Assembly: GCF_003096675.1 (NCBI RefSeq)
Contig: NZ_QEKW01000001.1
Location: forward strand, 434,001 to 498,000
Direction of reading: 5' to 3'
Source: Actinomycetospora cinnamomea
GTDB taxonomy: Bacteria; Actinomycetota; Actinomycetes; Mycobacteriales; Pseudonocardiaceae
DNA length: 64,000 nucleotides
The notes beneath the pieces were generated by a model, which was not told the origin of the DNA, made no database searches, and saw only the letters and a list, made by a program, of their open reading frames with translations. The first letter of the stretch is position 1; each line of letters opens with the position of its first letter. Position numbers and translations under genes: made by a program. Below, piece by piece: positions 2,502-30,116 of the stretch.

Positions 2502-2535
2502 CGACCTGCGTCACGGGACGGGCCGGCCCGGCCGG

Positions 2536-5500
2536 TCACGGGAGCTCGAAGGTGAGCAGGCGGGGCACGAGGTCGGGCCGGGCCGTGCGCAGCAGCTGGT
2601 AACCGAAGCCGGCCGCGCCGGTGAACAGGCCGGGGATCGCGCTGCCGGGCGGGAGCGTGCGGCTGAACCGGTGACCGTGGCGGCGGGAGCGGGCGACGGC
2701 CCCGGCCATCGCGGCCCGGCCCTCCGCGACGAGGTCCGCCCGCCCGCGGTGGCGCCCGACCTCGAGCAGCAGCTCCGCGCGACCCGCGGTCCCGCAGCAC
2801 AGGAGGACCTCGGCGCCGTGCCCCTCGCTCGAGAGCCGGCGTCGGGTGGTTCTCAGGGCCGCGTCGACCTCCCCGGCGAGCAGGGCGGGGTCGGCGGCTC
2901 CCGGCCCCCCGATCTCCAGGAGCGCGAGGCGGCCCAGCCCGATGCCGGGCGCACCGTGGCACCACGCGACCCCGAAGGGCCGCGGCGCCGTCGCCTCCTC
3001 GCCGTGGTCGCGCAGGTCGGGCCAGTTGGCGCGCTCGGGGTCGAAGAGGGCGCGTTCGTGGGCGAGCCCGCGCTCGACCGCCTCCGCGAGCGCTCCCGCG
3101 AGCGCCTCCGTCCCCGAGAGCCGGTGCAGGCGCGCCAGGGCGTGCACCACGCCGGCGGCCCCGTGGCTGTAGCCCGTGAGCAGCCGGCGGTCCGGGGCCG
3201 ACCAGCCCCAACCCGTCCCGGCGCCGGCCCGCCGCTCCTCGAGCAGGCGCCGTCCGCAGGCCTCGGCGAGGCGCCGGACGTGGGGGTCCTCCCGGCGCCG
3301 GTGCAGGACCAGGAGCCCCGTGAGCAACCCGGCGGTTCCCCCGAGCAGGTCGTGCGCGCGGAGGTCGGCGAGCTCGTCCTCGGAGAGGTCGCCCGCCAGG
3401 GCGACGGCGTCGCGCCGCGGGAGGTCCTCGCCGAGGAGATCCGCCACGAGGACCCCCGCGTAGAGCAGCGAGCCCACGCCGTCCCCGAGTCCGGCGCCCA
3501 GGCCCTCGATCCGCCGGCCGGCGGGGACGTGGGCGAGCTGCTCGCGGACGGTGGCCCAGCAGCCGGCCGCCGCGACGGCCGAGCGGTCGTCGCCGGTCAC
3601 CCGGTGGTGGGCGGCCAGGAAGACCGCGAGCCCGGCCGCGCCGTCGTAGAGACCGGGCCCGAGCGGGCCCAGCTGGAGGCGCCCGCTGCGCCCGAGCAGC
3701 TGGGGGGCGACCCAGGTGATCGTGCCGTCGGCGCCGTGCACGGCGTCCCGGAGGAGGGTCTCGACCAGGGCGGTCGCCTCACCGAGGGTGTCCAGTTCTC
3801 CGGGGTCGGCGGTGGGAGCGCAGGACGGGGTCGGGCTCCCGCTCTCCTCCTCGCCGTCGCGGGCGCGCACCCGCGCCGATCCCGCCGACAGGGCGGCCAG
3901 GAGGAAGTCGAGGTGGTCCCCCAGCGCGGCCTCGGACATCGCGGCCACGCGCTCGGTGAGCAGGTCCCAGCTCGACCGCGGGAACCAGCCGGGCACCTCC
4001 AGGCCGTCCTCGCCGCACAGCGTGGTGCCGTCGACGGGCGCGGAGAACACCGGGACGTCCAGCCGCGCGAGCGCCCGCCGCTCGCTCTCGAGCACCGGGC
4101 CCGGCAGGGGGCGCGTGAACATGGCGAGCTGGGGCCGCGCCAGGACCTCGGCCACCAGGCCGGCGTCGACGCCGTCGGCCAGGCGGCGCGAGGAACGGGA
4201 GAGCAGCCCGAGGACCCGGCCGTAGATCTCGGTGGGTCGCACGATGATGCGGGTGTGCGCGCCGCGGAGCGCGGCCAACGGGCCGGTCGGGCCGAGGAGA
4301 TCCTCGCGGTGCGCGAGCAGGAACCGGTAGGTCGCGGCGAACCCGGCGAGGAGCTCGCCGGGGTCCGGCGTCATCGTGGTGCCGTCCGCGCGCCGGGGCA
4401 GGTTGTGCGTCGGGCGGCCCCGTGACGGTCCGGGCACGAGGGCCATGGCGTCGGTGTTGGGCGCCCGCCACCGCAGCCGGGAGCCGTCGGTCCGGGCGGC
4501 GCCGTCGCCGGAGAACCCGCCGATGTCGAACGCGGACTCCCCGTCGAGGTCGAGCTGCCAGGTCGGGAGCAGCGTGGTGCGCGCGGGCGAGCGGCTGTGT
4601 GCGAGCCAGGCGGAGTCGACCGCCGAGGCGGTCGAGGACGGGAGCTCCTCGGGGACCCGGTGGTGCAGGAGGGCCTCCGCGTCGACCAGGACGGGCGACG
4701 CCCCGTCGGCGATGACGTTCTCGTGGTGACCATCGACCAGGTCGAGCAGGTGGGCCACGCACAGCAGCGCGCCCGCCTCCCGCCCGTAGCGACCGGACGC
4801 GTCCGGCCCCTCGCACGGCCGGTGCTCGACGAACTCCACCCACCCGTGCTCACCGCGGTCGAGGATCCGCAGCACGGCCGGCGTCGCCGGGGCCCCGGCC
4901 GCGGCCATCGCGCGCACCACGTCCTGCAGCGCCGCCTCCAGGGCCACGGACCGGGGCTTGTGCACCGCGCGGAGCCCGTCGGAGAAGCGCACCACGACGA
5001 CCCGCCGGCCACCCCGGTGCGGGTCGCCGTCGGTGAGGTCCACGGCCTCGACGCGCCCGGGCGCCCCGGGTCGCCCGAGCAGTGCGGCGAGCTCCGGGCC
5101 GTCGGTCTCGGCGTGGCACGCGAGGTCGAGGGCGTTGTCCCGTGCCCCGAGCGTGACCTGGGCCAGGGCCCGGGCCAGGACCGGCAGCCGCTCGAGCAGC
5201 CGGACGAATCCGCCGTCGAGCATCGAGGCGACGAAGCGGTCGTAGCGCGCCCGGCCTGCTCCCGCCCCGGCGAGGAAGGGCAGGGGTGTCCCTCCGCGGA
5301 CGAGGGCGAACTCCTCGTACAGGGCCCGCCCGGCCCACCCGGAGAGCTGTCCCAGGAGATCGACCACGAGGTCCTCGACCGCCCCGGGCGCCAGGACCGG
5401 CCGGTCGGCCAGCGCGGCCGACAAGGTCGCCGCGAACGGCACGAGCAGCTCGACGAACGGGATCGCCCGCGCCCGGGCGGGCACCGGCGCCGCACGCGCG

Positions 5501-5859
5501 GGTCGGCTCAGCACCTCGTCGAGGAGGACGGCCCAGTCCGGCCAGGTCGCGGGCGCGACGTGCGCGGGATCCACGTCGAGCACGCAGCGGGCCGCGTCGC
5601 CGCGGGACAGACCCTGCTCGGCCAGCCGGCCGACGAGGGTGGGCCGGTCCACCGCCCCCGCCGACCCGACGACGTCGCCGGCCGGGCCCGCGTCCCGTCC
5701 GGCGACGTGCTGCGCCCAGGCGTGGGTCCGGGCGTCGACGACCTCGGCGGGGGTGGGGAGGGCGACGTGGTGGGCGCGCTCGCGCAGCAGCAGGGCGCGG
5801 GCGACGATCGCGGCGGTGCGGCCTGCCGTCGCGGTGGGGAGCGGGTCGGCCAGGGTCAT
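2536..5859 (-). CDS. lanM: class II lanthipeptide synthetase LanM
   Basis: Bifunctional enzyme of 1107 residues that dehydrates Ser/Thr in the precursor core and then closes lanthionine rings with Cys. The N-terminal DUF4135 dehydratase has Lys301 (HKPRS), Asp376, His378 and Asn381 (DGHHEN) and Asp393 (LVDAE), with the spacing known in CylM. The C-terminal LanC-like cyclase has GYSHGAAG, WCHGAPG (Cys about 967) and CCG (Cys about 1021 and 1022). This is the three-Cys zinc site of CCG-type LanMs such as ProcM, a group noted for substrate tolerance. The ATG at 5859 overlaps the stop of the upstream ABC gene (ATGA), so translation is probably coupled. It is the last gene of the lanthipeptide operon and converges on mutT1. 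Confidence 0.95.
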   Translation of the reverse strand: MTLADPLPTATAGRTAAIVARALLLRERAHHVALPTPAEVVDARTHAWAQHVAGRDAGPAGDVVGSAGAVDRPTLVGRLAEQGLSRGDAARCVLDVDPAHVAPATWPDWAVLLDEVLSRPARAAPVPARARAIPFVELLVPFAATLSAALADRPVLAPGAVEDLVVDLLGQLSGWAGRALYEEFALVRGGTPLPFLAGAGAGRARYDRFVASMLDGGFVRLLERLPVLARALAQVTLGARDNALDLACHAETDGPELAALLGRPGAPGRVEAVDLTDGDPHRGGRRVVVVRFSDGLRAVHKPRSVALEAALQDVVRAMAAAGAPATPAVLRILDRGEHGWVEFVEHRPCEGPDASGRYGREAGALLCVAHLLDLVDGHHENVIADGASPVLVDAEALLHHRVPEELPSSTASAVDSAWLAHSRSPARTTLLPTWQLDLDGESAFDIGGFSGDGAARTDGSRLRWRAPNTDAMALVPGPSRGRPTHNLPRRADGTTMTPDPGELLAGFAATYRFLLAHREDLLGPTGPLAALRGAHTRIIVRPTEIYGRVLGLLSRSSRRLADGVDAGLVAEVLARPQLAMFTRPLPGPVLESERRALARLDVPVFSAPVDGTTLCGEDGLEVPGWFPRSSWDLLTERVAAMSEAALGDHLDFLLAALSAGSARVRARDGEEESGSPTPSCAPTADPGELDTLGEATALVETLLRDAVHGADGTITWVAPQLLGRSGRLQLGPLGPGLYDGAAGLAVFLAAHHRVTGDDRSAVAAAGCWATVREQLAHVPAGRRIEGLGAGLGDGVGSLLYAGVLVADLLGEDLPRRDAVALAGDLSEDELADLRAHDLLGGTAGLLTGLLVLHRRREDPHVRRLAEACGRRLLEERRAGAGTGWGWSAPDRRLLTGYSHGAAGVVHALARLHRLSGTEALAGALAEAVERGLAHERALFDPERANWPDLRDHGEEATAPRPFGVAWCHGAPGIGLGRLALLEIGGPGAADPALLAGEVDAALRTTRRRLSSEGHGAEVLLCCGTAGRAELLLEVGRHRGRADLVAEGRAAMAGAVARSRRHGHRFSRTLPPGSAIPGLFTGAAGFGYQLLRTARPDLVPRLLTFELP

Positions 5860-8633
5860 CGCCGGTCCTCCGGAGCGGGTGCGGTGAGGGTGGGGAGGGC
5901 GTCGGTGGACTGGCGCTCGACGAGGTGACGGAACACGCCGTCGACGGCGACGAGCTCGTCGTAGGTGCCGGTCTGGACGATCCGGCCGGCGTCGAGCACG
6001 ACGATGCGGTCGGCGTGGCGGATCGTGCTCAGGCGGTGCGCCACGACCACGCGGGTGACGTCGAGGCCGTCGAGGTGCGCCGAGACGCGCGCCTGGGTGA
6101 GGTCGTCCAGGGCGCTCGTGGCCTCGTCGAGCACGACGATCCGCGGCCGCCGGGCGAGCGCGCGGGCGATCATGAGCCGCTGCACCTGTCCGCCGGAGAA
6201 GGTCGTGCCCCCCTCCCCCACCACGGTGCGCAGACCCATCGGCATGCGGCGCACGTCGTCGGCGAGCGACGCGGCCTCCAGCGCGGCCCAGGCCCGCTGC
6301 TCGCCGTCCTCGCCGCGGGAGGTGCCCAGCACCGTGGTGAGGATCGAGCCGGGCATCGGCCGGGCCCCCTGGACGACCACCCCGATCTGGCGGCGGACCT
6401 CCGCCTGGTCCAGGGCGGTCAGGTCGGTGCCGTCGTAGCGGACGACACCGGTGTCGGGCCGCTCGAGGCCCAGCACCAGGCGCAGCAGCGTGCTCTTGCC
6501 GGAGCCCGACGGACCGGTGACGGCCACGAACTCCCCCGGGGCGATGTCGAGATCCACCCCGTCGAGCACGGGGCCGCGGCCGCGCTCGTCGCCCTCCGGC
6601 GGCGGCTCGGGCGGTGCCGTCGCGTCGTCGGGGGTCGGCGGGTCCCACGACGCGGAGGGGCGCGCCGTACCGCTGGTCGCACCCGAGCCCCGGTAGCGGA
6701 AGGACACCGCGCGCAGCGAGATGCGGCCGCCGAGCACGCCCGGGGGCTCCGATCCGACCGGCTCGACGGGTTCGGCGAGCAGCGGCCGCAACCGCTGCCA
6801 CAGCGGGAGGACCGAGAGCAGCGGGGTCAGGGTCGAGGCCGAGGCCGCGAGCGCCCCCGCGAACTGCCCGACCGCAGCCGAGACCGCCAGGAACTCGCCG
6901 GCCGAGATGCGGCCGACCAGGGTCGCCGCGGTGACGGCGTAGAGCAGCAGGGCGAGCACGGCGGGACCGGCCACCACGAGCGCCGACACGAGCGCCTGCA
7001 GCCGCCCGGCCGCCAGGACGTGCTGCTCCTGGCGGCGGAACCCCCGGGCCCACCGCTCGGTCACCCGGTCGGTCGCTCCCGCGACCTGGACCTTGTCGAT
7101 CGCGGCGAGGGACTGGAACAGGAGGGAGGAGAGCTCCCCGGCGACGGTGTAGCTCGCGGACTGGTGCGCCACCACGCGCCGTGTGAGCCGCAGCAGGACC
7201 ACCGCCGCGACCGCGACGAGGACGGTCGCCCCGAGCCCCAGCTCCGGTGAGTAGACGTAGAGCACGACGAGGTTCACCAGGGAGGACAGCACCACCACCA
7301 GCGCGTCGAGTCCCCCGCCGGCGATCTGCTGGCGGAGCACCTGGAGGCCGGCCGCACGGGCGGCGAGGTCACCGGTGTCGTAGCGGCGGAAGAACTCGCT
7401 GGGCAGCCGCAGCCAACGATCCGTCAGGGCCGGGTCGAGCAGGTCGGACAGCCGGGCCGTCAGCCGCACCCCGGCCACCCCCCGGACCACCGCCACCGCG
7501 GCCCAGACCGCCGCGGCCCCGACCAGCAGCGCCGCCACCGCCGCCAACAGCGACGGTGACCGGGCGGGGAGGACGCTGTCGAACACCAGAGCGACCGCGG
7601 CGGGCGTCACCAGCGTGACCAGACCCGCGAGCACGCCCCACGCGGCCACCCGCACCAGGTCGCCCCGGGTACGCCGCAGCGCCGCCCGCAGCAGCGTCCC
7701 GGCCCAGACGTGGTCGGGGAGGCGGGGGTGGACGACGAGGGCGACCGGCGCGATCCGCGCGGCGGCCTCCCGGTCGACCCGCGCCGTCCGCCCCGTCGAG
7801 GGGTCGAGGACGTCGTAGCCCTCCCGGCGCGGGAGCAGGGCCACCGGCACGCGGCCGCCGTCCGCGGTGCCGAGCATCGGCGCCCCGGATCGTCGCCACC
7901 ACTGCGGGTCCAGGCTGACGACCCGCCAGCGCCGCCCGCGGGCCCGGATGCGGGCGATCACCGCGTCGGCGTCGAGGACCCCGGCACGGCCACCCGTCTC
8001 CCCCGGCGCGCCGCGCGCCGCCCCGGCGCCGTCGGGCGCGTCGTCCAGGTGGCGGTCGAGCGCGTCGAGCGTCAGCTCCAGCTGCTCCGCGCCCCCGTGG
8101 GCCGCATCCGGCCGGGTGCCGTCGACGACGCCGCGCAGGCCGTCGAGCACGTCGCGCAGGCGGTCGCGCTGCTCGCGCGGGGCCCGCCGCAGCCGCCGGC
8201 CCTCGCGGTCCACGTCCCGGGCCAGGGCGGCGATCCGGCGGTCGAGCGCGTCACGCCACGTCGCGCGCCGCGAGACGCCGGCGCCGTCCGGCGCCGCGGA
8301 CCCCGCGGCGAGGACGGCGAGGAGCTCTCCGGGATCGTCCGGCGGCGCGGCGAGCTCGACGATCTCGGTGTCGGGAAGACCGAGGCCGACGAGCCGCCAC
8401 CCGGCCGGCACCGCACCCGCCGGGACGTAGAGCATCGTGCCGGCCGGCGGGGTGACGAGGTGGTGGCGGCGGCCGTCGAGCGCATCGCCGACGTCCTCCA
8501 GGAACAGGTCGAGCGCGCCCTGGACGACCACGCGCAGCAGCCCGTCGTCGACCGCGACGGGCGTGTTCGCCCCCACCCGCCGGGTCTCACCCCGCGGCGC
8601 GGACCGGGAGCCTGACGTCGCCGGTTCAGCCAC
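5856..8633 (-). CDS. NHLM-type bacteriocin ABC transporter, permease/ATPase without peptidase
   Basis: Second exporter subunit of the NHLM (nitrile-hydratase-leader microcin) type, 925 residues from a GTG start that overlaps the preceding transporter gene by 8 bases. A long N-terminal region of about 320 residues has no recognisable C39 peptidase Cys or His. It is followed by a six-helix permease and an ATPase with Walker A GPSGSGKST, signature FSGGQVQR, Walker B VVLDEATSALD and the switch AHRLSTI. It probably forms a heterodimer with the peptidase-bearing partner encoded upstream, exporting the modified peptides. The N-terminal region resembles the cyclic-nucleotide-binding-like extension of this family, but I cannot confirm that by eye. 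Confidence 0.88.
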   Translation of the reverse strand: MAEPATSGSRSAPRGETRRVGANTPVAVDDGLLRVVVQGALDLFLEDVGDALDGRRHHLVTPPAGTMLYVPAGAVPAGWRLVGLGLPDTEIVELAAPPDDPGELLAVLAAGSAAPDGAGVSRRATWRDALDRRIAALARDVDREGRRLRRAPREQRDRLRDVLDGLRGVVDGTRPDAAHGGAEQLELTLDALDRHLDDAPDGAGAARGAPGETGGRAGVLDADAVIARIRARGRRWRVVSLDPQWWRRSGAPMLGTADGGRVPVALLPRREGYDVLDPSTGRTARVDREAAARIAPVALVVHPRLPDHVWAGTLLRAALRRTRGDLVRVAAWGVLAGLVTLVTPAAVALVFDSVLPARSPSLLAAVAALLVGAAAVWAAVAVVRGVAGVRLTARLSDLLDPALTDRWLRLPSEFFRRYDTGDLAARAAGLQVLRQQIAGGGLDALVVVLSSLVNLVVLYVYSPELGLGATVLVAVAAVVLLRLTRRVVAHQSASYTVAGELSSLLFQSLAAIDKVQVAGATDRVTERWARGFRRQEQHVLAAGRLQALVSALVVAGPAVLALLLYAVTAATLVGRISAGEFLAVSAAVGQFAGALAASASTLTPLLSVLPLWQRLRPLLAEPVEPVGSEPPGVLGGRISLRAVSFRYRGSGATSGTARPSASWDPPTPDDATAPPEPPPEGDERGRGPVLDGVDLDIAPGEFVAVTGPSGSGKSTLLRLVLGLERPDTGVVRYDGTDLTALDQAEVRRQIGVVVQGARPMPGSILTTVLGTSRGEDGEQRAWAALEAASLADDVRRMPMGLRTVVGEGGTTFSGGQVQRLMIARALARRPRIVVLDEATSALDDLTQARVSAHLDGLDVTRVVVAHRLSTIRHADRIVVLDAGRIVQTGTYDELVAVDGVFRHLVERQSTDALPTLTAPAPEDRR

Positions 8634-10812
8634 GGCCGACCAGCTCCCGGTAGAGCCCCTCCTCGGCGAGGAGGTCGTCGTGGACCCCGCGCTGGACGAC
8701 CCGCCCCCGGTCGAGCACGACGATCTCGTCGGCGTCGCGGATGGTGGACAGGCGGTGCGCCACGATCACGCAGGTGCAGGCGCGGCGGCGCAGGTGGGCG
8801 TCGATGCGGCTCTCGGTCGTCGCGTCGAGGGCGCTGGTGGCCTCGTCGAGCACGAGGACCGAGGGGTTCCCCGCGAGGGCCCGGGCGATGTCGAGGCGCT
8901 GACGCTGACCTCCCGAGAAGTTGCGTCCGCCTTCGTGCACCGCGGCCCCGAACCCCCCGAGGCGCGCCTCGATCTCCTCCGCCAGGCAGGCGTCCCGCGC
9001 GGCGCGGGTGATGTCGGCGGCCGGGATCGAGGGGTCGAAGAGGGTGATGTTCTCCGCGACGGAGCCGCTGAACAGCGCGACGGACTGGTCGACACGCGCG
9101 AGCGAGGCGTGCAGGAGATCGAGGTCGACCTCCTGGCGGGGGACCCCGTCGAGGAGCACCTGCCCCGACCAGGGCGACACGAGCCCGGTGAGCAGGTCCG
9201 CCACCGTCGACTTCCCGGCGCCCGACGGCCCCACCAGGGCGACCCGCCGCCCCGGCGCGACCTCCAGGCGGAAGTCCTCGAGCAACGGCGGTTCGAGCCG
9301 CGAGTAGCCGAACGTGACGTCCTGCAGGGCGACGTGCCCGCGCAACCGCGCGCGGGTGGTCGTCGGCCCGGTGCGACGCGGGCGTGCACCGTCGCCGGTG
9401 ACCGGCGCGGCGCGCTCCGGAGCCTCGTCGAGCACGTCGAGCAGCTGCTGGGTCCAGGCCCGTGCGTTCTGGATCTGCCCGCCGGCCGCCACCAGCTGGC
9501 CCACGGGCGCGAAGAAGAACCCCGCCAGCACCTGGACGGCCACGAGCTCGCCGATGCTCGCGCGGTCCGCGAGGACGAGGGCGCCCCCGAGGGCGAGCAC
9601 GGCGACCGTGTTCAGCATCGCGAGCACCGCCGGGGCGATCACCAGCGGCTGGGAGGCGGTCCCGAGACGCTGCTGGGTGTTGATCACCCGGGCCAGGCGG
9701 CCCGCCCAGCGGCCGAAGTACTCGTCCTCGCTGCCCGTGGCCCGGAGGTCGTCCCGCAGGTCGAGGCCCGTGTAGGTGAAGCCGTCGAGGGCGGTCGTCG
9801 CCATCTGCAGGTCCTGGTTGAGCGCGCGGCGACGCCGGGCGGTGCGGGCGAGGACGAGGGCGTTGAGCGAGGCGAGCCCCACGGCCGCGGCGCCGAGGAC
9901 CGGGTTCCACCACAGCAGCACCGCCGCGTAGACCACCATCGACACCAGCCCGATGCCCCCGGCGGCGAGCTGCCCGGTCACGAGGGTGGCGAGCGAACCG
10001 TTCAGCGAGACCCGGCTCACCAGTGCCCCACGGGAACGGGCGTCGAAGAAGGCCGACGGCAGGGCCAGCAGGTGACGGAGGAAACCCGCCGTCGACCGGA
10101 TCGTCACGACCGTGGCGAGGCGCACGAGCATCCGTTGCCCCAGCAGGGTCAGCCCGACCTGCAGGACGACGACGGCCACGGCGCCGACCAGGACGATCCC
10201 GCTCCACAGGAGGTCCCGCCCGCCCACCACCTGATCGACGAACAGGGAGGCCAGCAGCGCACCGACGATGATCGGGACGGTCCCGAGGACCCCCGCGGCG
10301 ACCACGGTCGCGACGGCCGGCGCGGTGCCCCGCAGGAGACCGGGCAGCACCGTCGCCTGCCGGGGCGCGTGACGGACGGGTCCCGCCGAGCCGGCGCGGC
10401 GGGAGAACGTCAGGACGATCCCGCTGTAGCTCTCGGCGAACTCCCGGCGGGAGACGTGTCGCGGTCCGACCGCGGGATCGGCGAGCAGCACCGAGCGGCG
10501 GGTGAAGCGTTCCACGACGAGGAAGTGGTTCTGCTCCCAGTACACGATCACCGGTCCGGCCGCGCGGCAGATGCCGGCGAGCTCCTCGACCCGGGCCCGG
10601 CGGCCCTCGGCCTCCATCCCGTGGGCGCGGGCGGCGCGCACGATGTTCAGGGCGTTGACGCCGTCGCGGGAGACGCCGCAGTCGGCGCGCAGCCGTGAGA
10701 GGGCGACCGGCGCACCGAGGTGGTCGAGGACCATCGCGAGCGCGGCCGCGCCGCACTCGGCGGCCTCCATCTGCAGGACGGGCCGCAACCGCCGCCTGAA
10801 CATGCTGATCAT
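8626..10812 (-). CDS. NHLM-type ABC exporter with C39 leader peptidase
   Basis: Peptidase-containing ABC transporter (728 residues) expected to cut the precursors after the Gly-Gly site and export the cores. The C39 peptidase triad is visible: Cys20 in AAECGAAAL, His96 in EQNHFLV and Asp112 in LADPAVG. A permease with six hydrophobic segments follows, then an ATPase with GPSGAGKST, FSGGQRQR and VLVLDEATSALD. The start ATG 10812 overlaps the stop of the upstream adaptor gene (ATGA); a second ATG lies three codons downstream. The next gene starts before this one ends. The double-glycine peptidase matches the Gly-Gly sites in both upstream precursor peptides. Confidence 0.93.
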   Translation of the reverse strand: MISMFRRRLRPVLQMEAAECGAAALAMVLDHLGAPVALSRLRADCGVSRDGVNALNIVRAARAHGMEAEGRRARVEELAGICRAAGPVIVYWEQNHFLVVERFTRRSVLLADPAVGPRHVSRREFAESYSGIVLTFSRRAGSAGPVRHAPRQATVLPGLLRGTAPAVATVVAAGVLGTVPIIVGALLASLFVDQVVGGRDLLWSGIVLVGAVAVVVLQVGLTLLGQRMLVRLATVVTIRSTAGFLRHLLALPSAFFDARSRGALVSRVSLNGSLATLVTGQLAAGGIGLVSMVVYAAVLLWWNPVLGAAAVGLASLNALVLARTARRRRALNQDLQMATTALDGFTYTGLDLRDDLRATGSEDEYFGRWAGRLARVINTQQRLGTASQPLVIAPAVLAMLNTVAVLALGGALVLADRASIGELVAVQVLAGFFFAPVGQLVAAGGQIQNARAWTQQLLDVLDEAPERAAPVTGDGARPRRTGPTTTRARLRGHVALQDVTFGYSRLEPPLLEDFRLEVAPGRRVALVGPSGAGKSTVADLLTGLVSPWSGQVLLDGVPRQEVDLDLLHASLARVDQSVALFSGSVAENITLFDPSIPAADITRAARDACLAEEIEARLGGFGAAVHEGGRNFSGGQRQRLDIARALAGNPSVLVLDEATSALDATTESRIDAHLRRRACTCVIVAHRLSTIRDADEIVVLDRGRVVQRGVHDDLLAEEGLYRELVGRG

Positions 10813-11588
10813 CCCTGGATCACGTACTCGAGGGGGTGACGGCTCTCGACGATCAGGCGCACCTCGGTGAGGCGATCGGCCACGGTGCCCGCCCGTGGGG
10901 TCGGGAAGGCGGCACCGGGCGCCGGGCGCAGGCGCACGGGGGTGAGCCCGTCTCGGGGCGCCACGATGGCGCCGAGGGCGGGACCGCCCAGTGACTGCGC
11001 GGCCTGCTCGGTCTCCACGGGCAACGACCCGACCGCGTCGACGAGCGCGTCGACCGGCCCGCGGTCCGGGAACGACACGACCGCCCGCGTCCCGGGCCCG
11101 ATCCGGGCGGCGTCGTCCGGGGCGACGAAGGCGCGCACCACCGTCGCACCGTTCGTCCGCTCGAGGACCAGCACGCGCTCCCCCGCCTCGACGGGGTCCC
11201 CGACGTCCAGCGGCGCGTCGAGCACGACCGCGTCGACCGGGGCCGTCAGCGGCAGGACGCCGGCGGTGACCGACTCGACGACGGCGACGGTCTGACCGGA
11301 CCGCACGACGGTGCCCGCCGCGGGACGAGCGGTCGCGAGCCGGCCCGGGACCGGGCTCTCGAGGCCGATCACCGAGCCGCCGACCACCGCGAGCCCGGGG
11401 ACGACGACGCTGCGGTCCACCACCGCGGTCGCCGCCCACAGCACGATCCCGCCGGCGAGCAGCGCGAGGGCGAGGAGGGCCAGGACGGTGCGACCGGGGA
11501 CGACCACGACGGGCCGGTCGACCCTCTCGGACTCCGGGACACGCTCGGGTGCCGCCGGGGTGAGGTCCGGAGGACGGGGGGAGGACAT
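10809..11588 (-). CDS. NHLM bacteriocin secretion adaptor, HlyD-like
   Basis: Membrane-fusion-type partner of the two ABC exporters, 259 residues. One N-terminal transmembrane segment (about residues 33-53, LLALALLAGGIVLW) is followed by an extracytoplasmic region with biotinyl-lipoyl-like halves, recognisable from SPVPGRLATARPAAGTVVRS and DAPLDVGDPVEAGERVLVLE. The ATG at 11588 has a near-perfect ribosome site, GGAGGTGA, seven bases upstream, which settles the start. It lies between precursor A1 (38 bases upstream) and the peptidase exporter (overlapping). In a Gram-positive cell the adaptor cannot reach an outer membrane and may instead guide peptide through the cell wall; that role is inferred. 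Confidence 0.88.
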   Translation of the reverse strand: MSSPRPPDLTPAAPERVPESERVDRPVVVVPGRTVLALLALALLAGGIVLWAATAVVDRSVVVPGLAVVGGSVIGLESPVPGRLATARPAAGTVVRSGQTVAVVESVTAGVLPLTAPVDAVVLDAPLDVGDPVEAGERVLVLERTNGATVVRAFVAPDDAARIGPGTRAVVSFPDRGPVDALVDAVGSLPVETEQAAQSLGGPALGAIVAPRDGLTPVRLRPAPGAAFPTPRAGTVADRLTEVRLIVESRHPLEYVIQG

Positions 11589-11626
11589 GCCGGGGTCACC
11601 TCCGTGTCGTCGCGAGGGGGGCCGGC

Positions 11627-11944
11627 TCAGGAGGTGGCCGGCCGGCCCGTGGCGTAGGGCATCCACTGGCAGTCGGCACGCTGGGCCGCTCCGCCGCGCA
11701 GGCCGGCGAGGTCGGTCTCGGACAGCCGACCCTCGTCGGGGGGCATCGCGGGCAGGACCAGGTGGAGCTCGGCGGCGGTGTCCTGCCGGACGTGCACGGT
11801 GAGCCCCTCGGGCAGGTCGGCGCCGGCCTCCCGGGCCACGGCGCTGCGGGGATCGCGACGCAGCTCCTCCCGGAACGCGGGGTCGGCCTGCGCGCGACGG
11901 GCGAGCGCGAGCTCCAGGTGCTGCCTGGACTCGTGGTTCGGCAT
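11627..11944 (-). CDS. lanthipeptide precursor A1 with NHLP leader
   Basis: Small peptide of 105 residues. Residues 1-85 form a leader of the nitrile-hydratase-alpha-like (NHLP) family: a helical LALARRAQADPAFREELRR block, then GLTVHVRQDT and a VLPAMP segment. A double glycine at 84-85 gives a 20-residue core. The core has one Cys (92), Thr at 99 and 104 and Ser at 105, so at most one thioether ring is possible, and Cys lies on the N-terminal side of the hydroxy residues. The ATG has a strong GGAGGAG ribosome site. The leader is about 60% identical to precursor A2. Leader type is secure; that the core becomes a lanthipeptide is inferred from lanM. Confidence 0.88.
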   Translation of the reverse strand: MPNHESRQHLELALARRAQADPAFREELRRDPRSAVAREAGADLPEGLTVHVRQDTAAELHLVLPAMPPDEGRLSETDLAGLRGGAAQRADCQWMPYATGRPATS

Positions 11945-11967
11945 GCGGGTCTCCTCCGGAGAAGGGG

Positions 11968-11995
11968 CCCGGGGCCGCCCGACGGCGGCCCCGGG
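11968..11995 (-). terminator. perfect 12-bp hairpin between the two precursor genes
   Basis: Arms CCCGGGGCCGCC and GGCGGCCCCGGG around a 4-base loop (cgac), lying 13 bases after the stop of precursor A2 and 23 bases before the start of A1. There is no U tract. It could act as a partial terminator or as a 3' stabiliser that keeps precursor transcripts above those of the enzymes, as is common in bacteriocin operons; that role is inferred. Confidence 0.55.
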
Positions 11996-12008
11996 GACGG
12001 GCCGTCGG

Positions 12009-12350
12009 TCAGCAGTCGCCGACGATGCTCCCGGCGGTGCAGGTGGTGGGGACCCAGCTCGCGCAGTCGGTGTGGTGGCTCTTGCCGGAGCCGCCGGCGA
12101 CCCCGGCGAGCTCGGCGTCGGAGAGACGCCCGCTCTCCGCCGGCAGCGCCGGCAGGACCAGGTAGACCTCGCTGGCGGTGTCCTCCAGCACGTGGACCTC
12201 GAGGTCGGCCGGCAGCTCGCGGCCGGCCTCCTTGGCCACGGCCCCCCGCGGGTCGCGCAGCAGCTCCTCCTTGAAGGCCGGGTCGGCCTGGGCCCGACGG
12301 GCCAGGGCGACCTGCAGCTGGTCCTTGGACTCGTACGTCGTCTCGGACAT
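12009..12350 (-). CDS. lanthipeptide precursor A2 with NHLP leader
   Basis: Precursor of 113 residues and first gene of the operon. Residues 1-87 are an NHLP-type leader (QLQVALARRAQADPAFKEEL, EVHVLEDTASEVYLVLP, then LAGVAGG). The Gly-Gly at 86-87 leaves a 26-residue core containing Cys96, Cys104 and Cys113 (the last residue), with Ser at 88, 91, 98 and 108 and Thr at 95, 102, 103 and 105. Up to three thioether rings are possible, and the final one would close at the C-terminus (TCTAGSIVGDC). The ATG is preceded by GAGGAGAGGG at good spacing. I cannot match the core to a named lantibiotic. The claw motif of true nitrile hydratase is absent. Confidence 0.92.
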   Translation of the reverse strand: MSETTYESKDQLQVALARRAQADPAFKEELLRDPRGAVAKEAGRELPADLEVHVLEDTASEVYLVLPALPAESGRLSDAELAGVAGGSGKSHHTDCASWVPTTCTAGSIVGDC

Positions 12351-12505
12351 CCGATCCCTCTCCTCGTGCTCGCTCGCGTCCCTGCTCGGTGGGTCTCGCT
12401 CGTCCGGGCGGGGACGGTGATGTGTCGGCCGCACTCGCTCTCGGTCCGCCGGCCGTGCGGTCACCGGCGACGACCACAGGGGACCCGGTCGCCCCCACGG
12501 GGAGC

Positions 12506-13708
12506 TCACGCCCGACCCTCGCTGCGGGGCCGGGCGTCCGTGTGTGTGCCGTGAGCGGCCCGTGGGTCCGCGAGCCAGGCGTCGCGCCGGGCCCGGGCCT
12601 GCGCGGCCACGGCCGGGTCGAGAGCCCGTGCGGCGTGGGCGCGCACCGCCGTGAGCTGCACGAAGGAGGAGTCCCGGGCGCCGTCGCCGCTGCGCAGCAC
12701 GGACAGCAGCGAGCAGTGGACCAGCTGGCCCAGCAGCTGGGCGACCTCTCCCCGGGGGGCGTCGAGCAGGGCGGCCGCGAGCTCGGCGGGGAACGGGCCG
12801 GACACCACGGCGAGGACCGCGTGCAGGGCCCGGCACCGGGGGTCGAGCAGGCGCACCCCGGCGTCGACCGCCTCGTGCAGCGAGTGCCGCGGACGGTGCG
12901 GACCGCGCCCGACGGGGGCGAGCGAGGCCGCGTCGGCACGGACCTGGACGAGGATCTCCTCCAGGGTGTACGACCGCGCCCGGGCCGCCGCCAGCTCGAG
13001 GGCCAGCGGCAGCCCGTCGAGCGCTGCGGCGACCTGCTCGACCACGCCCCAGCGCTCCTCGTCGAGGTGCTGCTCGGGGACGACGCGGGCGAGGCGGTCG
13101 GCGAGCAGCACCGCGGCGGCCGGCCGCGCGCCCGGGTTCCCGGGGCGGACCGGCAGCGGCGAGAGCCAGGACAGCCGCTCGCCGGTCACCCCGAGCGGCT
13201 CCCTGCTCACCGCCAGCACCGCCGGTCGCGCGGTCGGCGGGCCGTGCCGCTCCCGGGTGAGCGCCTCGTCGAGCACCTCCGCGACGACGTCCAGGACAGG
13301 CTCCGCATGGTCGACGAGGACGAGGCTGCGTCCCGAGGGTCCGGCCGCCATCGCGGCCTCGACCCGGCGGCGGGTGTCCGCGTCGTCCGTGCCGGTCGTG
13401 ACGGGAGCGGTCGTGTCGGGGGCGGTCGTGTGGGGGGCGGTCGTGTCGGGGGCGGTCGTGTCGGGGGCGGTGCCGGCGAGGTCGAGCAGGCGCACCCCAC
13501 CGGGGAAGCGAGCCGCCACGCGCGCGGCAGCCGATCGTGCGAGGTGCGACCGGCCGACCCCGGGGGGCCCGCACACGGTCACGAGCCCTCCGGCGGGACG
13601 CAGGGCGTCGAGGAGAACACCGAGCTGCTCGAGCTCGACGTCGCGTCCGAGGCAGGGCCGCGGTTCCGGGTGCGTGTCCGCGGAGCCGGTGTCCGCACAC
13701 CGCGACAC
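12506..13708 (-). CDS. AfsR/SARP-type regulator, NB-ARC ATPase part (downstream of a frameshift)
   Basis: About 400 residues resembling the signalling ATPase half of AfsR-type regulators: LGRDVELEQL, then a P-loop GPPGVGRS, a Walker B-like SLVLVDHAE, the switch LAVSREPLGV and the helical GLPLALELAAARA motif. The P-loop has Arg where Lys is expected. The part before LGRD has no domain, and the frame is open upstream without a convincing start; the nominal GTG at 13708 is only the first available codon. The matching DNA-binding half ends in another frame at the same place, so I read this as the 3' part of one regulator gene split by a single-base difference. No TPR tail is evident before the stop. 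Confidence 0.75.
   Translation of the reverse strand: MSRCADTGSADTHPEPRPCLGRDVELEQLGVLLDALRPAGGLVTVCGPPGVGRSHLARSAAARVAARFPGGVRLLDLAGTAPDTTAPDTTAPHTTAPDTTAPVTTGTDDADTRRRVEAAMAAGPSGRSLVLVDHAEPVLDVVAEVLDEALTRERHGPPTARPAVLAVSREPLGVTGERLSWLSPLPVRPGNPGARPAAAVLLADRLARVVPEQHLDEERWGVVEQVAAALDGLPLALELAAARARSYTLEEILVQVRADAASLAPVGRGPHRPRHSLHEAVDAGVRLLDPRCRALHAVLAVVSGPFPAELAAALLDAPRGEVAQLLGQLVHCSLLSVLRSGDGARDSSFVQLTAVRAHAARALDPAVAAQARARRDAWLADPRAAHGTHTDARPRSEGRA
13395..13469 (-). repeat. five tandem 15-bp units inside the regulator (PDTTA repeat)
   Basis: Five consecutive 15-base units (plus-strand form GTCGTGTCGGGGGCG and variants) encode repeated A-P-D-T-T, with His or Val in some copies. They sit between the P-loop and Walker B of the NB-ARC part, where a loop extension could be tolerated. 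Near-identical units suggest recent slippage expansion. Confidence 0.85.
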
Positions 13709-13709
13709 C

Positions 13710-14549
13710 CCCCGGGCCCCGCGACACCTCCGGCGGAGGCGCGGACGGTCCGGGGAGGGTGAGGAGGTCGGGATCGCGGACGAGCACCCGTCGGTGCAGC
13801 TCGACGAGCGCGGGTCCGGGGACGAGGCCCATCTCGTCGGCGAACAGGGCCCGCACGGTCGCGTAGATGCCCAGGGCCTCGTCGATGCGCCCGCAGCGGT
13901 ACGCGGCGACGATCGCCTGCTCCCAGGGCCTCTCGGTCAGCGGGGATCCGGCCAGCACCGGCTTGAGCTCCACCAGGGCCCGTTCGGCCTGACCGGTCGC
14001 CAGCAGGCCGTCGACGAGCTGCAGCCGCAGCCGTCCGTACAGCTCGTCCAGGCGGACCCTCGCGGGCCGGGCCCAGTCACGGTCGGAGATCCCGGGGTAG
14101 GGGTCACCGCGCCAGAGGGCCGCGGTCGCCTCCGCGAGCGCGAGGGCCTCCGCGGCCCGGCCCGCGCGAAGCAGGGACCCGACCTGCTCGACCTGCGCCG
14201 CGAACCGGTCCGACTCCAGCTCGCACTCCCCGGTCGCGAGGCGGTAACCGCCGTGGTCGTGCACCAGGATCCGCGGGGGCCGGCCGGCGTCCCGGCCGAC
14301 CTCGAGGACCTGCCGCAGACGCCAGACCTGGGCCTCGAGGGCCCGCCGGTGGTCCTGTCGGGAGTCCTCGCCCCAGACGGCGTCGATGAGCGCGTCCGCG
14401 CCGACCCGCCGCCCGTTCTCCACGACGAGGCGGGACAGGGTCGCCGCGAGCCGAGGGGCCGCGAGCCGGACGACCTCGCGTCCGGTGTCGACCTCGAGCG
14501 CACCGAGGTCGCGGATGAGCGGTCGAGTCGATTCGGCCAGAAGACCCAT
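13710..14549 (-). CDS. AfsR/SARP-type regulator, DNA-binding and BTAD part (frameshifted)
   Basis: The N-terminal 280 codons encode a winged-helix OmpR-like DNA-binding domain (RLAATLSRLVVENGRRV, then DALIDAVWGED, YRLATGECELESDRF) and a bacterial transcriptional activator domain (RAAEALALAEATAALWRG, ERALVELKPVLAGSPLTE, GLVPGPALVELHRRVL). Such SARP proteins activate antibiotic and lanthipeptide clusters. The protein-like signal ends at a run of six C on the plus strand (13708-13713), where the ATPase half continues one base out of register. Removing one base there would fuse the halves into about 680 residues. The gene reads toward the lanthipeptide operon, whose first gene lies 155 bases beyond the regulator stop, so it is the likely local activator. 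Confidence 0.78.
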
Positions 14550-14578
14550 ACGACGACATCACCGGACGGCGCGGCCCC

Positions 14579-14605
14579 GAGCATCGGGGGAACCCCCCGA
14601 TGCTC
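14579..14605 (-). terminator. perfect 12-bp hairpin between the two regulator genes
   Basis: Arms GAGCATCGGGGG and CCCCCGATGCTC around a 3-base loop, just downstream of the stop of the LuxR-family gene and about 30 bases before the SARP start. It lacks a U tract. It fits a GC-type terminator for the upstream gene, but could also be an operator for the SARP gene. Confidence 0.5.
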
Positions 14606-14610
14606 AACGA

Positions 14611-17430
14611 TCAGCCGTGTGGGTCCGACCCGTGCTCGTCCACCGGGACGGCGCGGGCGAGGGCGCGCTTCGACCGGACGCCCAGCACCTGGTAGACGCG
14701 GGTGAGGTGGCTCTCCACGGTCTTCGGCGACAGGTAGAGGGTCGTCGCCATCTCGCGGGTGGTCAGACCGGCCGCGGCCAGCGCCCGGATCCGCTCCTGC
14801 TGGGGCGTGAGGACCGCGGTGGCGCCCCGTCGCCGCCGACGTCCGCCGGCCACCCGCAGCTCGTCGGCCGCCGCACGCGCGAGCGGCCGGGCGCCCGCCG
14901 CCTCCGCGAGCGCCAGCGCCTCGGCGAGCGCCTCCCGGGCCGGGCGCAGCTCCCCGCGGTGGCGCCGCCACCTCCCGTGGTCCAGCAGGACCTGGGCGCG
15001 ATCGACGATCTGGACGACGTCGATCGTGAGCGCCTCGGCGAACGCGCCCGCGGCCGCGTCGTCGTCCCCGGTGGCCGCGGCGACGGCTGCCCGGCTCGCC
15101 GCGGTGACCATCCGCACCCAGGGCGCGGTCGACCGCGCGGCCCGGCGGGTCAGGGCGTCGCGGACCCGGAGCGCGTCGTCGAGCGCCTCCGCCGCGAGGT
15201 GGGCCGCGACGGCGGGCGGTGCCCACGGCACGCAGGCCGGATCGGTCACGCCGTACCGGTCGGCGAGCTGCTCCGTCGCCAGGTAGGCGGCCGCGGCCTG
15301 CTCCACGTCGCCGCGGGCGGAGGCCAGTCGAGCGCGCAGGAAGGCCAGCCACAGCTCGGACTGCCACGTGACCGCGGTCGTCGCCGCGACCACGCCCTCG
15401 GCCCGCTCGACGTCACCCATGACGATCAGCAGGACCGCCTCGGCGACCGCCACCGACTCCGCCAGCAGCGGTACGGCCTCGGCCGGGCGCACGAGTTCGT
15501 CGAGGACCCGGCGGGCGTCGGTGAGCCGCCCCCGTCGCAGCGACGCGTCGACGATCGAGAGCTGCAACGCGAGCCGCGCGTGGAGCCGTCCGCCGCTCTC
15601 GGCGACCCCGACGGCCCGGTCCAGGACGCGGTCGGCGGTCTCGTGGCGGTCGGTCATCCGGGCGATCGCGACCAGGCACAGCTCGGGGTCGAAGGGGGAG
15701 AACCGGTCGACCGCGGCGTCGCTCCCGTCGGGCGGCTCGTCGGGCGGCACCGCGTCGGGGAGCACGCGCACGAGCAGCCGGTCGACGGCGTCGGGGTCGA
15801 GCTCCGCGAGGTGGGCGGCGAGGCAGTCCAGGGCGACCAGGTCCGCCGGCCAGGGCCCGGGCACGTCGATCTCGCGCAGGCGCGCCAACGTCGGGCCGGG
15901 TCCGAGCATCTGCCACGTGGGGTGGAGCATCTCGACGACCGCTCCGGCGAGCGCGGCCGGCGCCTCGACCCGCGCGTCGGTGACCGCCGCGGTGGCCGCC
16001 CGCTCCGCGGCGGCGAGGTCCCCGGCCAGGGCGAGCGCCCGGACCTGCAGGCGTCGGACCCGCAGGCGCGGCTCGCCGGTCAGTCCCGGTCGGGCCAGGG
16101 CGGCGGCCGCGACGTCGGCCGCCTGTGCGGGTCGCCCGAGGGCCAGTGCCGCCTCGGCGCAGCGCAGCAGCGTCGGGGCGTCGACCCGCGCGCCGGCGAG
16201 GTCGACGGCCGCCCGGAAGTGGGCGAACGCGCCGCCGACGTCGCCCGCGGCGAGGTCCGCCTCCCCGGCGGCGGTCGCGGTGGCCACCGCCTCGACGTCG
16301 CCGGCGAGCCCGGCCGCCAGCGCGTGCCGGACCGCGGCAGCGTGCTCGCCGAGCGAGGCCAGCACCCGGAGGGCCCGCTCGTGGTGGAGGGATCGCAGGG
16401 CCGGGCTGAGCCGGTCGTAGAGCGCGTCCCGCACCAGCGGCGCGGTGAAGGCGAGCCTCCCCGGACCGCTCTCGACGGCCAGGCCGTGCGCGACGAGGAC
16501 GTCGACGGCGCTCGCGACGGCGGGTCCCGGCACGCCGGTCAGCGCCGCGAGCAGCACCGGGCGGAACTCCACGCCCAGGACCGCGGCCGCCCGGGCCTGG
16601 TCGAGGACCGGCGGGGGAAGCGTCCCGAGCGACGCGCCCAGGCGGTCCGGACGATCGGGCCGGGGTGAGCCGACCAGGTGCTCGATGTAGAGCGGGTGGC
16701 CCCGGGCCCGGCGCCAGACCCGCTCGTCGGTCTCGTCGTCGGCCTCCTGCCCGAGGAGGTCCGCCACGAGCGCGGAGGACGACGAGCGGCCGAGCGGAGC
16801 CAGCTCGACCAGCGTGGCCGCCCCGTCGGCGACGAGCCGACCGAGCGGACCCGCGGTCGGCTCCGGCCGGGGACGGGTGGTCAGCACGAGTCCCAGCGGG
16901 ACGTCGTGGAGGTGGCGCGCCAGCGAGACGAGCAACCGTGTCGACCCGGGGTCGGCCAGGTGCAGGTCGTCGATCAGGACCAGCACGGGTCCGGTCGCCG
17001 CACGGCGTTCGACGAGGGCGCGCCATCGCTGTCGGAGGGCGACCTCGGCGGCGTCGCTCTCCGGGGCGGCCGGCGCGAGGGGGTCGCAGCACCCCGCCGC
17101 GAACGCGGCGCGGACGAGCCCGTGGGGCACCGCGGACTCCTCCACGTGGCCACGGGCCTCGACGACGTCGAGGCTCGTGGCCGTGCGCCGGGCCTCCCGC
17201 AGGAGCGCCGACCGTCCCACACCCGCGGCGCCCGTGATCACCACTGTGCCGCCCCGGCCGACCCGCAACCCGGCGATCAGCTGCCGCAGGACCGCGACCG
17301 CGTCGTCGCGCTCGCGGAGGAACGCCCCGTCGTCGCGCTCCGTCGTCGGTACCCGCGCGACCACCCCCGGCCGGCGTCCCGCCCCGCGGGGGCCCGCCCC
17401 CTCCGGATCCGCCTCGATCCCCCTGTTCAT
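14611..17430 (-). CDS. large ATP-binding LuxR-family regulator (LAL/MalT-like)
   Basis: About 939 residues with the LAL layout. There is an N-terminal AAA-type ATPase (P-loop TGAAGVGRSALL, Walker B VLVLIDDLHLADP), a long TPR-like helical middle region rich in Ala and Leu, and a C-terminal LuxR helix-turn-helix (LTPQQERIRALAAAGLTTRE, then LSPKTVESHLTRVYQVLGV). Such proteins activate promoters after sensing a ligand or nucleotide. The P-loop Lys is replaced by Arg, the same change as in the adjacent NB-ARC regulator, so ATP hydrolysis may be weak or lost. The start is uncertain: ATG 17430 is used here, and ATG 17472 is in frame upstream; neither has a clear ribosome site. It may control the lanthipeptide cluster, by position only. 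Confidence 0.87.
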   Translation of the reverse strand: MNRGIEADPEGAGPRGAGRRPGVVARVPTTERDDGAFLRERDDAVAVLRQLIAGLRVGRGGTVVITGAAGVGRSALLREARRTATSLDVVEARGHVEESAVPHGLVRAAFAAGCCDPLAPAAPESDAAEVALRQRWRALVERRAATGPVLVLIDDLHLADPGSTRLLVSLARHLHDVPLGLVLTTRPRPEPTAGPLGRLVADGAATLVELAPLGRSSSSALVADLLGQEADDETDERVWRRARGHPLYIEHLVGSPRPDRPDRLGASLGTLPPPVLDQARAAAVLGVEFRPVLLAALTGVPGPAVASAVDVLVAHGLAVESGPGRLAFTAPLVRDALYDRLSPALRSLHHERALRVLASLGEHAAAVRHALAAGLAGDVEAVATATAAGEADLAAGDVGGAFAHFRAAVDLAGARVDAPTLLRCAEAALALGRPAQAADVAAAALARPGLTGEPRLRVRRLQVRALALAGDLAAAERAATAAVTDARVEAPAALAGAVVEMLHPTWQMLGPGPTLARLREIDVPGPWPADLVALDCLAAHLAELDPDAVDRLLVRVLPDAVPPDEPPDGSDAAVDRFSPFDPELCLVAIARMTDRHETADRVLDRAVGVAESGGRLHARLALQLSIVDASLRRGRLTDARRVLDELVRPAEAVPLLAESVAVAEAVLLIVMGDVERAEGVVAATTAVTWQSELWLAFLRARLASARGDVEQAAAAYLATEQLADRYGVTDPACVPWAPPAVAAHLAAEALDDALRVRDALTRRAARSTAPWVRMVTAASRAAVAAATGDDDAAAGAFAEALTIDVVQIVDRAQVLLDHGRWRRHRGELRPAREALAEALALAEAAGARPLARAAADELRVAGGRRRRRGATAVLTPQQERIRALAAAGLTTREMATTLYLSPKTVESHLTRVYQVLGVRSKRALARAVPVDEHGSDPHG

Positions 17431-17733
17431 GGCCGCTTCACTGTCGGCCGAGCGGTCGCTCGGCACAATCATTCGGACAGGTGCCTGATCATCACGGCGC
17501 GTGGCGACCCTTTCCTCGGAGGGGGTGATCGCGGCGCGGGCCCTCGCGGGAGGCGGTAGCACCCCGCAGCCCGCCCCCTCCAGACCCTCGTCACGGGACG
17601 AAGCGGGCGGTGCGGGACGGGGCGGGACGGGGCGGGACGGGACGGGACGGATCGGGGCGGGCACGGTGGGGCCGCTGAGCTGGGCTAACGTCGCCGCCGA
17701 CCCGCTGTCGCCGATCGCTGGGAGCCCTGCCCG
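17431..17733. other. 303-bp intergenic region between divergent regulator and oxidase genes
   Basis: Contains the upstream regions of the LuxR-family gene (minus) and the oxidase gene (plus). A less GC-rich patch around 17460-17500 may hold a promoter, but I cannot assign boxes. A tandem G-rich repeat occupies roughly 17611-17664. No convincing gene is seen. Confidence 0.6.
17611..17664 (+). repeat. degenerate G-rich tandem repeat (GGGACGGGGC units)
   Basis: About five copies of a 5- or 10-base unit (GGGAC or GGGACGGGGC) lie upstream of the copper-radical oxidase gene, ending some 70 bases before its start. The regularly spaced G-triplets could form a G-quadruplex on the plus strand. This looks like a slippage product of very GC-rich DNA; any function is unknown. 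Confidence 0.75.
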
Positions 17734-29451: not shown

Positions 29452-30116
29452 CGCGCGGCCTCCTCGACCCGCGCGAGGTCCCGCTGCGCCGATTCCCAGG
29501 GGCCGGCCCGCTCGACGATCAGCTCGGCCTTGCGGGCGAGCAGCTTGCCGAAGGTGGGCTCGGGCTCGGCGACCACGTCGAGCAGGGCGTCGATGGTGAG
29601 GTTCGCGTCGAGGTCCTCCTGCGGCGTCACGGGACGCATCGCACGGGTGAACTCGACCATGTAGCCGTTGGGGTCGTGGGTGTAGATCGACTCGATGGTC
29701 TCGTGCTGGATCTGCATCTCGACCGGCCAGGCGCTCTCGTCCAGGCGCCGGCGGTACTCGAGCAGGTCGTCCTGGTCGTCGACGTGGATCGCCAGGTGCC
29801 GCGACCGGACGAAGAACTCCGGGACCTCCGGGCCGAAGCCCGCGTAGGCGTCGCCACGCTCGTGGGCGTGCACCGGAGCGAGGCCGAAGTAGTAGAAGAA
29901 CGCGATCCGGTCGTCGTTGCCGATGTCGAAGAAGAAGTGGATGAAGTCCGGGTGGTCCTCCGGCCCCCACCCCGCCGCGCAGATCGAGTGCACCACCGGG
30001 AAGCCGAGCACGTCGCGGTAGAAGCGCACCGTGCCCGCGGGGTCGAAGGTCGGGAACGCCGTGTGGTCCACGCCCCGCACCTTGTGCTCGAGGCGTGCGC
30101 TGCCCTCGTCCGTCAT
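29448..30116 (-). CDS. VOC-superfamily protein, possible extradiol-type dioxygenase
   Basis: A 222-residue vicinal-oxygen-chelate protein. It begins with VRGVDHTAFPTFDPAGTVRFYRDVLGF, giving the first metal-ligand His. HLAIHVDDQDDLLEYRRRL gives the second, and DPNGYMVEFTR gives the Glu. These are the 2-His-1-Glu ligands of extradiol dioxygenases and related enzymes. A C-terminal helical extension of about 50 residues (ANLTIDALLDVVAEPEPTFG) is not part of the core fold. In this operon it may open a hydroxylated ring, but VOC proteins also include isomerases and epimerases. Confidence 0.8.
   Translation of the reverse strand: MTDEGSARLEHKVRGVDHTAFPTFDPAGTVRFYRDVLGFPVVHSICAAGWGPEDHPDFIHFFFDIGNDDRIAFFYYFGLAPVHAHERGDAYAGFGPEVPEFFVRSRHLAIHVDDQDDLLEYRRRLDESAWPVEMQIQHETIESIYTHDPNGYMVEFTRAMRPVTPQEDLDANLTIDALLDVVAEPEPTFGKLLARKAELIVERAGPWESAQRDLARVEEAAR

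Follow-up and report, generated by a model that had tools for sequence, protein, structure and literature searches.

The window analyzed here, a stretch of 64,000 nucleotides from Actinomycetospora cinnamomea, probably holds a class II lanthipeptide cluster that was acquired and belongs to the CCG (ProcM-clade) type, with duplicated precursors (A2 and A1), one LanM and export through a C39 transporter. The genes, their domains, the catalytic residues, the clade and the insertion are established; the modification of both precursors, the ring positions, the cutting and the export are what we infer. The following features make up the region:

2510-17600 (approximate), no strand: insert relative to the congeners, from comparison of the flanking genes, with an exact 11-bp GTCACGGGACG at both edges
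2536-5859, minus strand: LanM class II lanthipeptide synthetase, 1107 aa; TIGR03897 617.3 bits (cut-off 304); DUF4135 and LANC_like domains
5856-8633, minus strand: second ABC exporter subunit, NHLM ABC2-like; TIGR03797 651.6 bits (cut-off 709.4)
8626-10812, minus strand: C39 peptidase-ABC exporter, NHLM ABC1-like; Pfam C39 4.2e-32; TIGR03796 815.4 bits (cut-off 853.3)
10809-11588, minus strand: HlyD-family adaptor; Pfam HlyD_3 2.1e-12; TIGR03794 36.7 bits (cut-off 156.2)
11627-11944, minus strand: precursor A1, 105 aa; TIGR03793 53.4 bits
11968-11995, minus strand: hairpin in the A2-A1 gap, perfect 12-bp arms, loop of 4; candidate attenuator or processing site
12009-12350, minus strand: precursor A2, 113 aa; TIGR03793 71.7 bits
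12506-13708, minus strand: ATPase part of a regulator, in a different frame; Pfam AAA_16 below cut-off
13709-14549 (lower end approximate because of a frame change), minus strand: SARP-type regulator, DNA-binding and BTAD part; Pfam BTAD 3.8e-29
14579-14605, no strand: hairpin between the LAL and SARP genes, perfect 12-bp arms, from the stem scan
14611-17430, minus strand: LAL-type LuxR regulator with AAA_16 and GerE domain matches, uninterrupted

Both precursors score above 50.9 bits, the NCBIfam cut-off of TIGR03793, the NHLP leader model, and both leaders end in Gly-Gly. At an E-value of 0.01, eight matches to this model occur in the 5.97-Mb genome, A2 and A1 being the only ones above the cut-off, and none of 14 control genomes gave a signal. 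The A2 leader is coded by 12090-12350 and its core by 12012-12089, with Gly-Gly at residues 86-87; for A1, the leader is coded by 11690-11944 and the core by 11630-11689, with Gly-Gly at residues 84-85. The A2 core, SGKSHHTDCASWVPTTCTAGSIVGDC, is 26 aa long with Cys at 96, at 104 and, as its final residue, at 113; the A1 core, AAQRADCQWMPYATGRPATS, has 20 aa and a single Cys. The preliminary description, made from the letters alone, had read two adjacent genes with similar Gly-Gly NHLP leaders and cores of 20 and 26 residues, and a Cys-terminated A2 core with Cys at these three positions; the translations and the leader scores agree with it. A purine-rich stretch is found 5' of both start codons, and the codon positions resemble those of the neighboring genes (third-position GC of 0.97 and 0.93, in a host DNA of 74.5% GC). 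No sigma-70-like promoter or U-tailed terminator was found within 11500-12600, and the Rfam scan of the window at the gathering score returned two tRNAs and nothing else.

A2 and A1 are tandem duplicates of one NHLP precursor in which the leaders were kept and the cores changed: an ungapped alignment of the leaders spans 81 codons (65% identity in protein, 74% in DNA), and a 244-nt direct repeat of 75% identity covers both of them. For this one short pair, which gives a weak estimate, dS is 0.52, dN 0.25 and dN/dS about 0.49. The cores were at first said to have little in common. This holds for most of each core, although D-C-x(1,2)-W-x-P is common to the two. Shuffled sequences equal the similarity of the two cores in 563 of 20000 cases by global alignment and in 1630 of 20000 by local alignment; the likeness is thus suggestive, at the edge of chance.

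The HlyD, ABC1, ABC2 and LanM genes run in the same direction as A2 and A1, with overlaps of 4-8 nt. A2 and A1 stand first in an operon with the HlyD, C39-ABC, second ABC and LanM genes. Each of the genes for biosynthesis and export has an open frame and its expected domains.

The synthetase combines a dehydratase domain (DUF4135) with a LANC cyclase domain, as in a class II cluster, and by sequence it matches LicM2 and CylM, both of solved structure. In a 74-LanM alignment, it retains each of the nine dehydratase residues compared (D279, H281, K301, D376, H378, N381, D393, R541 and T543), and the zinc ligands are three Cys, C967, C1021 and C1022 (CCG, ProcM-type); the roles of these residues and ligands come from work on CylM. 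Three Cys zinc ligands are the mark of the ProcM clade, according to the available text of PMC13060382.

A tree of 74 LanM rows was built from 84 after removal of six duplicates, three short rows and one second copy. In it, the window LanM falls within a clade of all 34 CCG rows and 4 rows without the motif (SH-aLRT 100), on an end branch of 1.34, and no row is more than 35% identical to it. A second tree of 32 chosen rows under a mixture model, with two further CCG LanMs of the same order (L144 and L145) added, separates all 23 CCG rows from the rest by a branch with a support of 100 and pairs the window LanM with L144 (support 88, 39% identity). The matches L014-L018 and L099 are in no tree, L144 and L145 are in the 32-row tree only, and ProcM itself is in neither. 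The exact position of the LanM is unsure because its branch is long and the program issued a long-branch warning; the enzyme is best placed as a ProcM-clade (CCG) member on an isolated long branch. The score against TIGR03897, the two domains, the three zinc ligands and the clade together uphold the early assignment to a class II cluster with a CCG-type LanM.

Searches with the cyclase part sampled 394 genomes of the class, 397 of the order and 396 of the phylum. CCG LanMs were also found in L025, L145 and L144 of the same order and in L039 (Rubrobacter), which shows that other genomes share the type. No NHLP-like ORF was found in the examined loci of two of these LanMs (L025, 7451-10747; L145, 7624-11031), and that of L025 adjoins apparent ribonucleotide reductase genes.

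The C39-ABC exporter aligns over nearly its full length with a solved bacteriocin transporter, 4ry2 (E 5.6e-76), which we take to be PCAT1; the Cys, His and Asp motifs of the peptidase are recognizable in its sequence. The best family matches of all three transport genes are NHLM models, each under its NCBIfam cut-off and the HlyD gene far under; an ABC1 with C39, an ABC2 and an HlyD at or above the cut-offs, as an NHLM export set is recognized, were not found. The transport set is divergent but is predicted to work like an NHLM system. The C39, NHLM-type exporter named in the preliminary description stands in so far as an NHLM model is its best match, though below cut-off.

To what extent such leaders accompany CCG enzymes was read from the other LanM loci, with a leader model iterated from the two window leaders, which gathered 21 ORFs in the first round and 55 in the final one and absorbed Nif11-type leaders. 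An NHLP- or Nif11-like ORF is present in the loci of 28 of the 33 other CCG rows, near 2 of 33 CHG rows, each of which adjoins a CCG LanM, and near 1 of 7 other rows; the CHG count is a floor, because the model may overlook leaders unlike NHLP and Nif11, those of CHG clusters among them. Among 52 of these ORFs (51 from CCG loci plus that of L144, the window's own excluded), the NHLP model recognizes 22 and the Nif11 model 25 at E 0.001, so CCG LanMs accompany both leader kinds here. In the own data set of PMC10027976, as far as its accessible part goes, NHLP leaders occur with CHG LanMs, and Nif11 leaders exclusively beside CCG enzymes. This pairing counts against the combination of NHLP and CCG seen here and differs from our loci, where Nif11 is as common as NHLP beside CCG enzymes. 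ABC1 and ABC2 matches both above 150 bits occur in 7 of the 33 other CCG loci (L034, L040, L049, L051, L052, L057 and L061). One of these, L051, has three tandem NHLP-like ORFs at 13905-15029 with cores lacking Cys. In the L041 and L058 loci, a CCG and a CHG LanM lie together, an arrangement described for some cyanobacteria (PMC10027976, available part).

Among known systems, the prochlorosins and the nostolysamides (NpuM) likewise have a three-Cys zinc LanM, a Gly-Gly leader and a C39 exporter, to judge from the available text of PMC13060382. The nostolysamide precursor NpuA, from a cyanobacterium, is a single precursor with a Nif11 leader (same source); unlike that system, the present cluster has NHLP leaders, two precursors, and an HlyD and two ABC genes. 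NHLP leaders are also reported, in the consulted part of PMC7268733, for the class II families II 2, II 13, II 17, II 25 and II 29 in the set of 8405 precursors by Walker et al. 2020, which can be compared with A2 and A1 by description only; in II 2, II 13 and II 17, the leaders are conserved and the cores are not. The roseocin family shares with the cluster its NHLP leaders, one LanM for two precursors and an actinobacterial origin, but differs in a CHG LanM and GCC core motifs, and the part of PMC10027976 that was available mentions no second ABC or HlyD gene. Membership in the roseocin family was ruled out, the window LanM being CCG and the cores without GCC. The nearest LanM found is that of L144 (4487-7932; genome G819, same order), with 39% identity. 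Its locus contains an NHLP precursor ORF above the cut-off (53.0 bits) that overlaps the LanM start; it differs from the window in that the matched leader seems to lack the terminal Gly-Gly and no ABC1 or ABC2 match was found in the 20 kb examined.

The cores themselves have no counterpart in the material searched. The 47 readable cores from CCG loci (51 precursor ORFs less 4 with absent or overlong cores) differ widely among themselves. Against 52 related cores, the best score was equalled by 158 of 500 shuffles for A2 and by 465 of 500 for A1; with no match beyond chance among these, the cores remain unfamiliar, as they had been called. Precursor relatives at E 1e-8 were found in none of 17 congeners, and a search of 390 genomes of the family, the own one included, gave at E 1e-9 a single other protein, nitrile-hydratase-like by eye. 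Short exact peptide patterns confirmed no precursor relative in wider genome contigs, and no orthologous precursor of A2 or A1 was found in any of these three sets. Among plasmids, 47 records match the precursors, none across 80% of A2; the best match is an NHLP precursor of Tistrella, with 38.5% identity. PHROGs gave no match. No published description of the cluster was found in a literature search that covered few subscription papers.

With respect to ring formation, the two cores are unequal. A2 has 3 Cys and 8 Ser/Thr, with Ser/Thr N-terminal to every Cys, so up to three rings are possible. It is a convincing lanthipeptide precursor, well suited to rings; its modification is very likely, and a C-terminal ring closed at the last Cys is plausible. 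In the A1 core, the acceptors Thr14, Thr19 and Ser20 are all C-terminal to the single Cys7. The usual order (acceptor, then Cys) therefore fits A2, while A1, as all three Ser/Thr follow its Cys, allows no usual ring with Dha or Dhb before Cys and permits Cys-first closure only. On this reading, A1 would form at most one ring, Cys-first or none. ProcM-clade enzymes close rings in both directions, Cys-first included, and in nostolysamide, Cys comes first in three of the four rings (PMC13060382, as far as its text was available). Since the usual closure is impossible and the reverse one is reported for the clade, two readings of A1 are left, a substrate closed Cys-first into one ring or a decayed copy; some modification of it is slightly favored. 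The earlier proposal of two different class II lanthipeptides thus stands for A2, with its 3 Cys and 8 Ser/Thr, but less well for A1, with one Cys and no preceding Ser/Thr.

In the proposed mechanism, one NHLP precursor would have been duplicated in tandem to give A2 and A1, the leaders staying similar and the cores diverging. The single LanM would dehydrate Ser/Thr and then add Cys to the resulting residues. Cleavage behind the Gly-Gly would fall to the C39 exporter, which together with HlyD and the second ABC subunit would also export the product. LahT150 is reported to cut leaders of the nitrile-hydratase type (PMC6363468). The product of A2 would have up to three rings and that of A1 at most one, its Cys N-terminal to the partner Dhb or Dha. 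The computed monoisotopic [M+H]+ is 2620.122 for linear A2, 2566.091 after three water losses and 2476.038 after all eight; for A1 it is 2180.996 in the linear form and 2162.986, 2144.975 and 2126.965 after one, two and three losses.

The cluster lies in an insert relative to the congeners. In 14 of 17 congeners, compared as one genome per species, the NUDIX/phosphatase and glxA-like genes are adjacent, their matches 122-208 bp apart; in the window, these matches are 15,235 bp apart and the cluster fills the gap. In congener G010, 59% complete, neither flanking gene was matched. In G011 and G014, separate contigs carry the left gene and the best match to the right one, and the 240 bases past the left gene are unlike the cluster by eye. 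The LanM cyclase part was absent from all 17 congeners at E 1e-20. Gain is the simplest reading, and the cluster would thus be acquired. That the site is vacant in 14 congeners points to a gain later than the diversification of the genus, and it marks out approximate limits of the insert for cloning. No recombinase was found among the scanned insert proteins. The exact 11-bp GTCACGGGACG occurs at 2510-2520 and 17590-17600, so that two of its three exact copies lie at the insert edges; given the third copy in the window, at 29626, chance is possible. With one mismatch allowed, the sequence occurs 7 times in the window for 8.5 expected, which makes the repeat weak as a target-site duplication.

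Upstream of A2 are the SARP-type and LAL-type regulator genes, which together with the 74.5% GC point to an actinobacterial host. The coding signal of the SARP-type gene switches frame near 13.7 kb (13600-13860) without a stop, and the first stop of its frame is A2's own, at 12009. In one of five SARP matches (L098), both regulator parts are in a single frame. The change may be a real frameshift, a sequencing error or a split gene; with the regulator divided between frames, expression is possibly poor. The two hairpins are the only stems of the window with perfect arms of at least 11 bp and loops of 3-8, and both lie in gaps of the cluster. The folding energy of the A2-A1 hairpin is ordinary (z of -1.48, equalled by 15 of 200 shuffles).

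Several other explanations have to be weighed. A1 could be a decaying duplicate that has lost Cys and the needed Ser/Thr, the lanthipeptide coming from A2 alone. Its leader scores below that of A2 (53.4 vs. 71.7 bits), its one Cys has no Ser/Thr before it, an order rare among the readable CCG-locus cores (3 of 47), and its likeness to the A2 core is weak. On the contrary, the frame of A1 is still open, its start is preceded by a purine-rich stretch, and it retains neighbor-like codon positions and Gly-Gly; a dN/dS of the leader of about 0.49 also speaks against decay. We regard this explanation as possible, yet somewhat improbable. Tentative to a slightly greater degree is the most specific form of the preferred reading: that the cluster represents an isolated ProcM-clade lineage outside cyanobacteria in which A2 leads to up to three rings and A1 to one ring closed only Cys-first.

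That the cluster is silent or broken, with no product in the host, is unlikely: the frame change in the SARP-type regulator near 13.7 kb would fit it, but may be a sequencing error, and the genes for biosynthesis and export have open frames and their domains, with the LAL regulator uninterrupted. More improbable still is a two-component lantibiotic of the roseocin sort formed by A2 and A1. Two precursors, one LanM and NHLP leaders are indeed found in roseocin (PMC10027976, available part), but RosM is a CHG enzyme and the roseocin cores carry S/TxxxxTxGCC or GS/TxxxxS/TxGCC (same source); GCC occurs in neither the A2 nor the A1 core, and A1 would form at most one ring.

For lanthipeptide chemistry, the contribution of the acquired CCG cluster is two unmatched cores, as is ordinary in systems of this kind. 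If both precursors are modified, A1, with one Cys and three downstream acceptors, would offer a simple test of reverse closure outside cyanobacteria. If the Cys-first reading is true, A1 would be a minimal natural substrate for asking how such enzymes choose the direction of ring closure.
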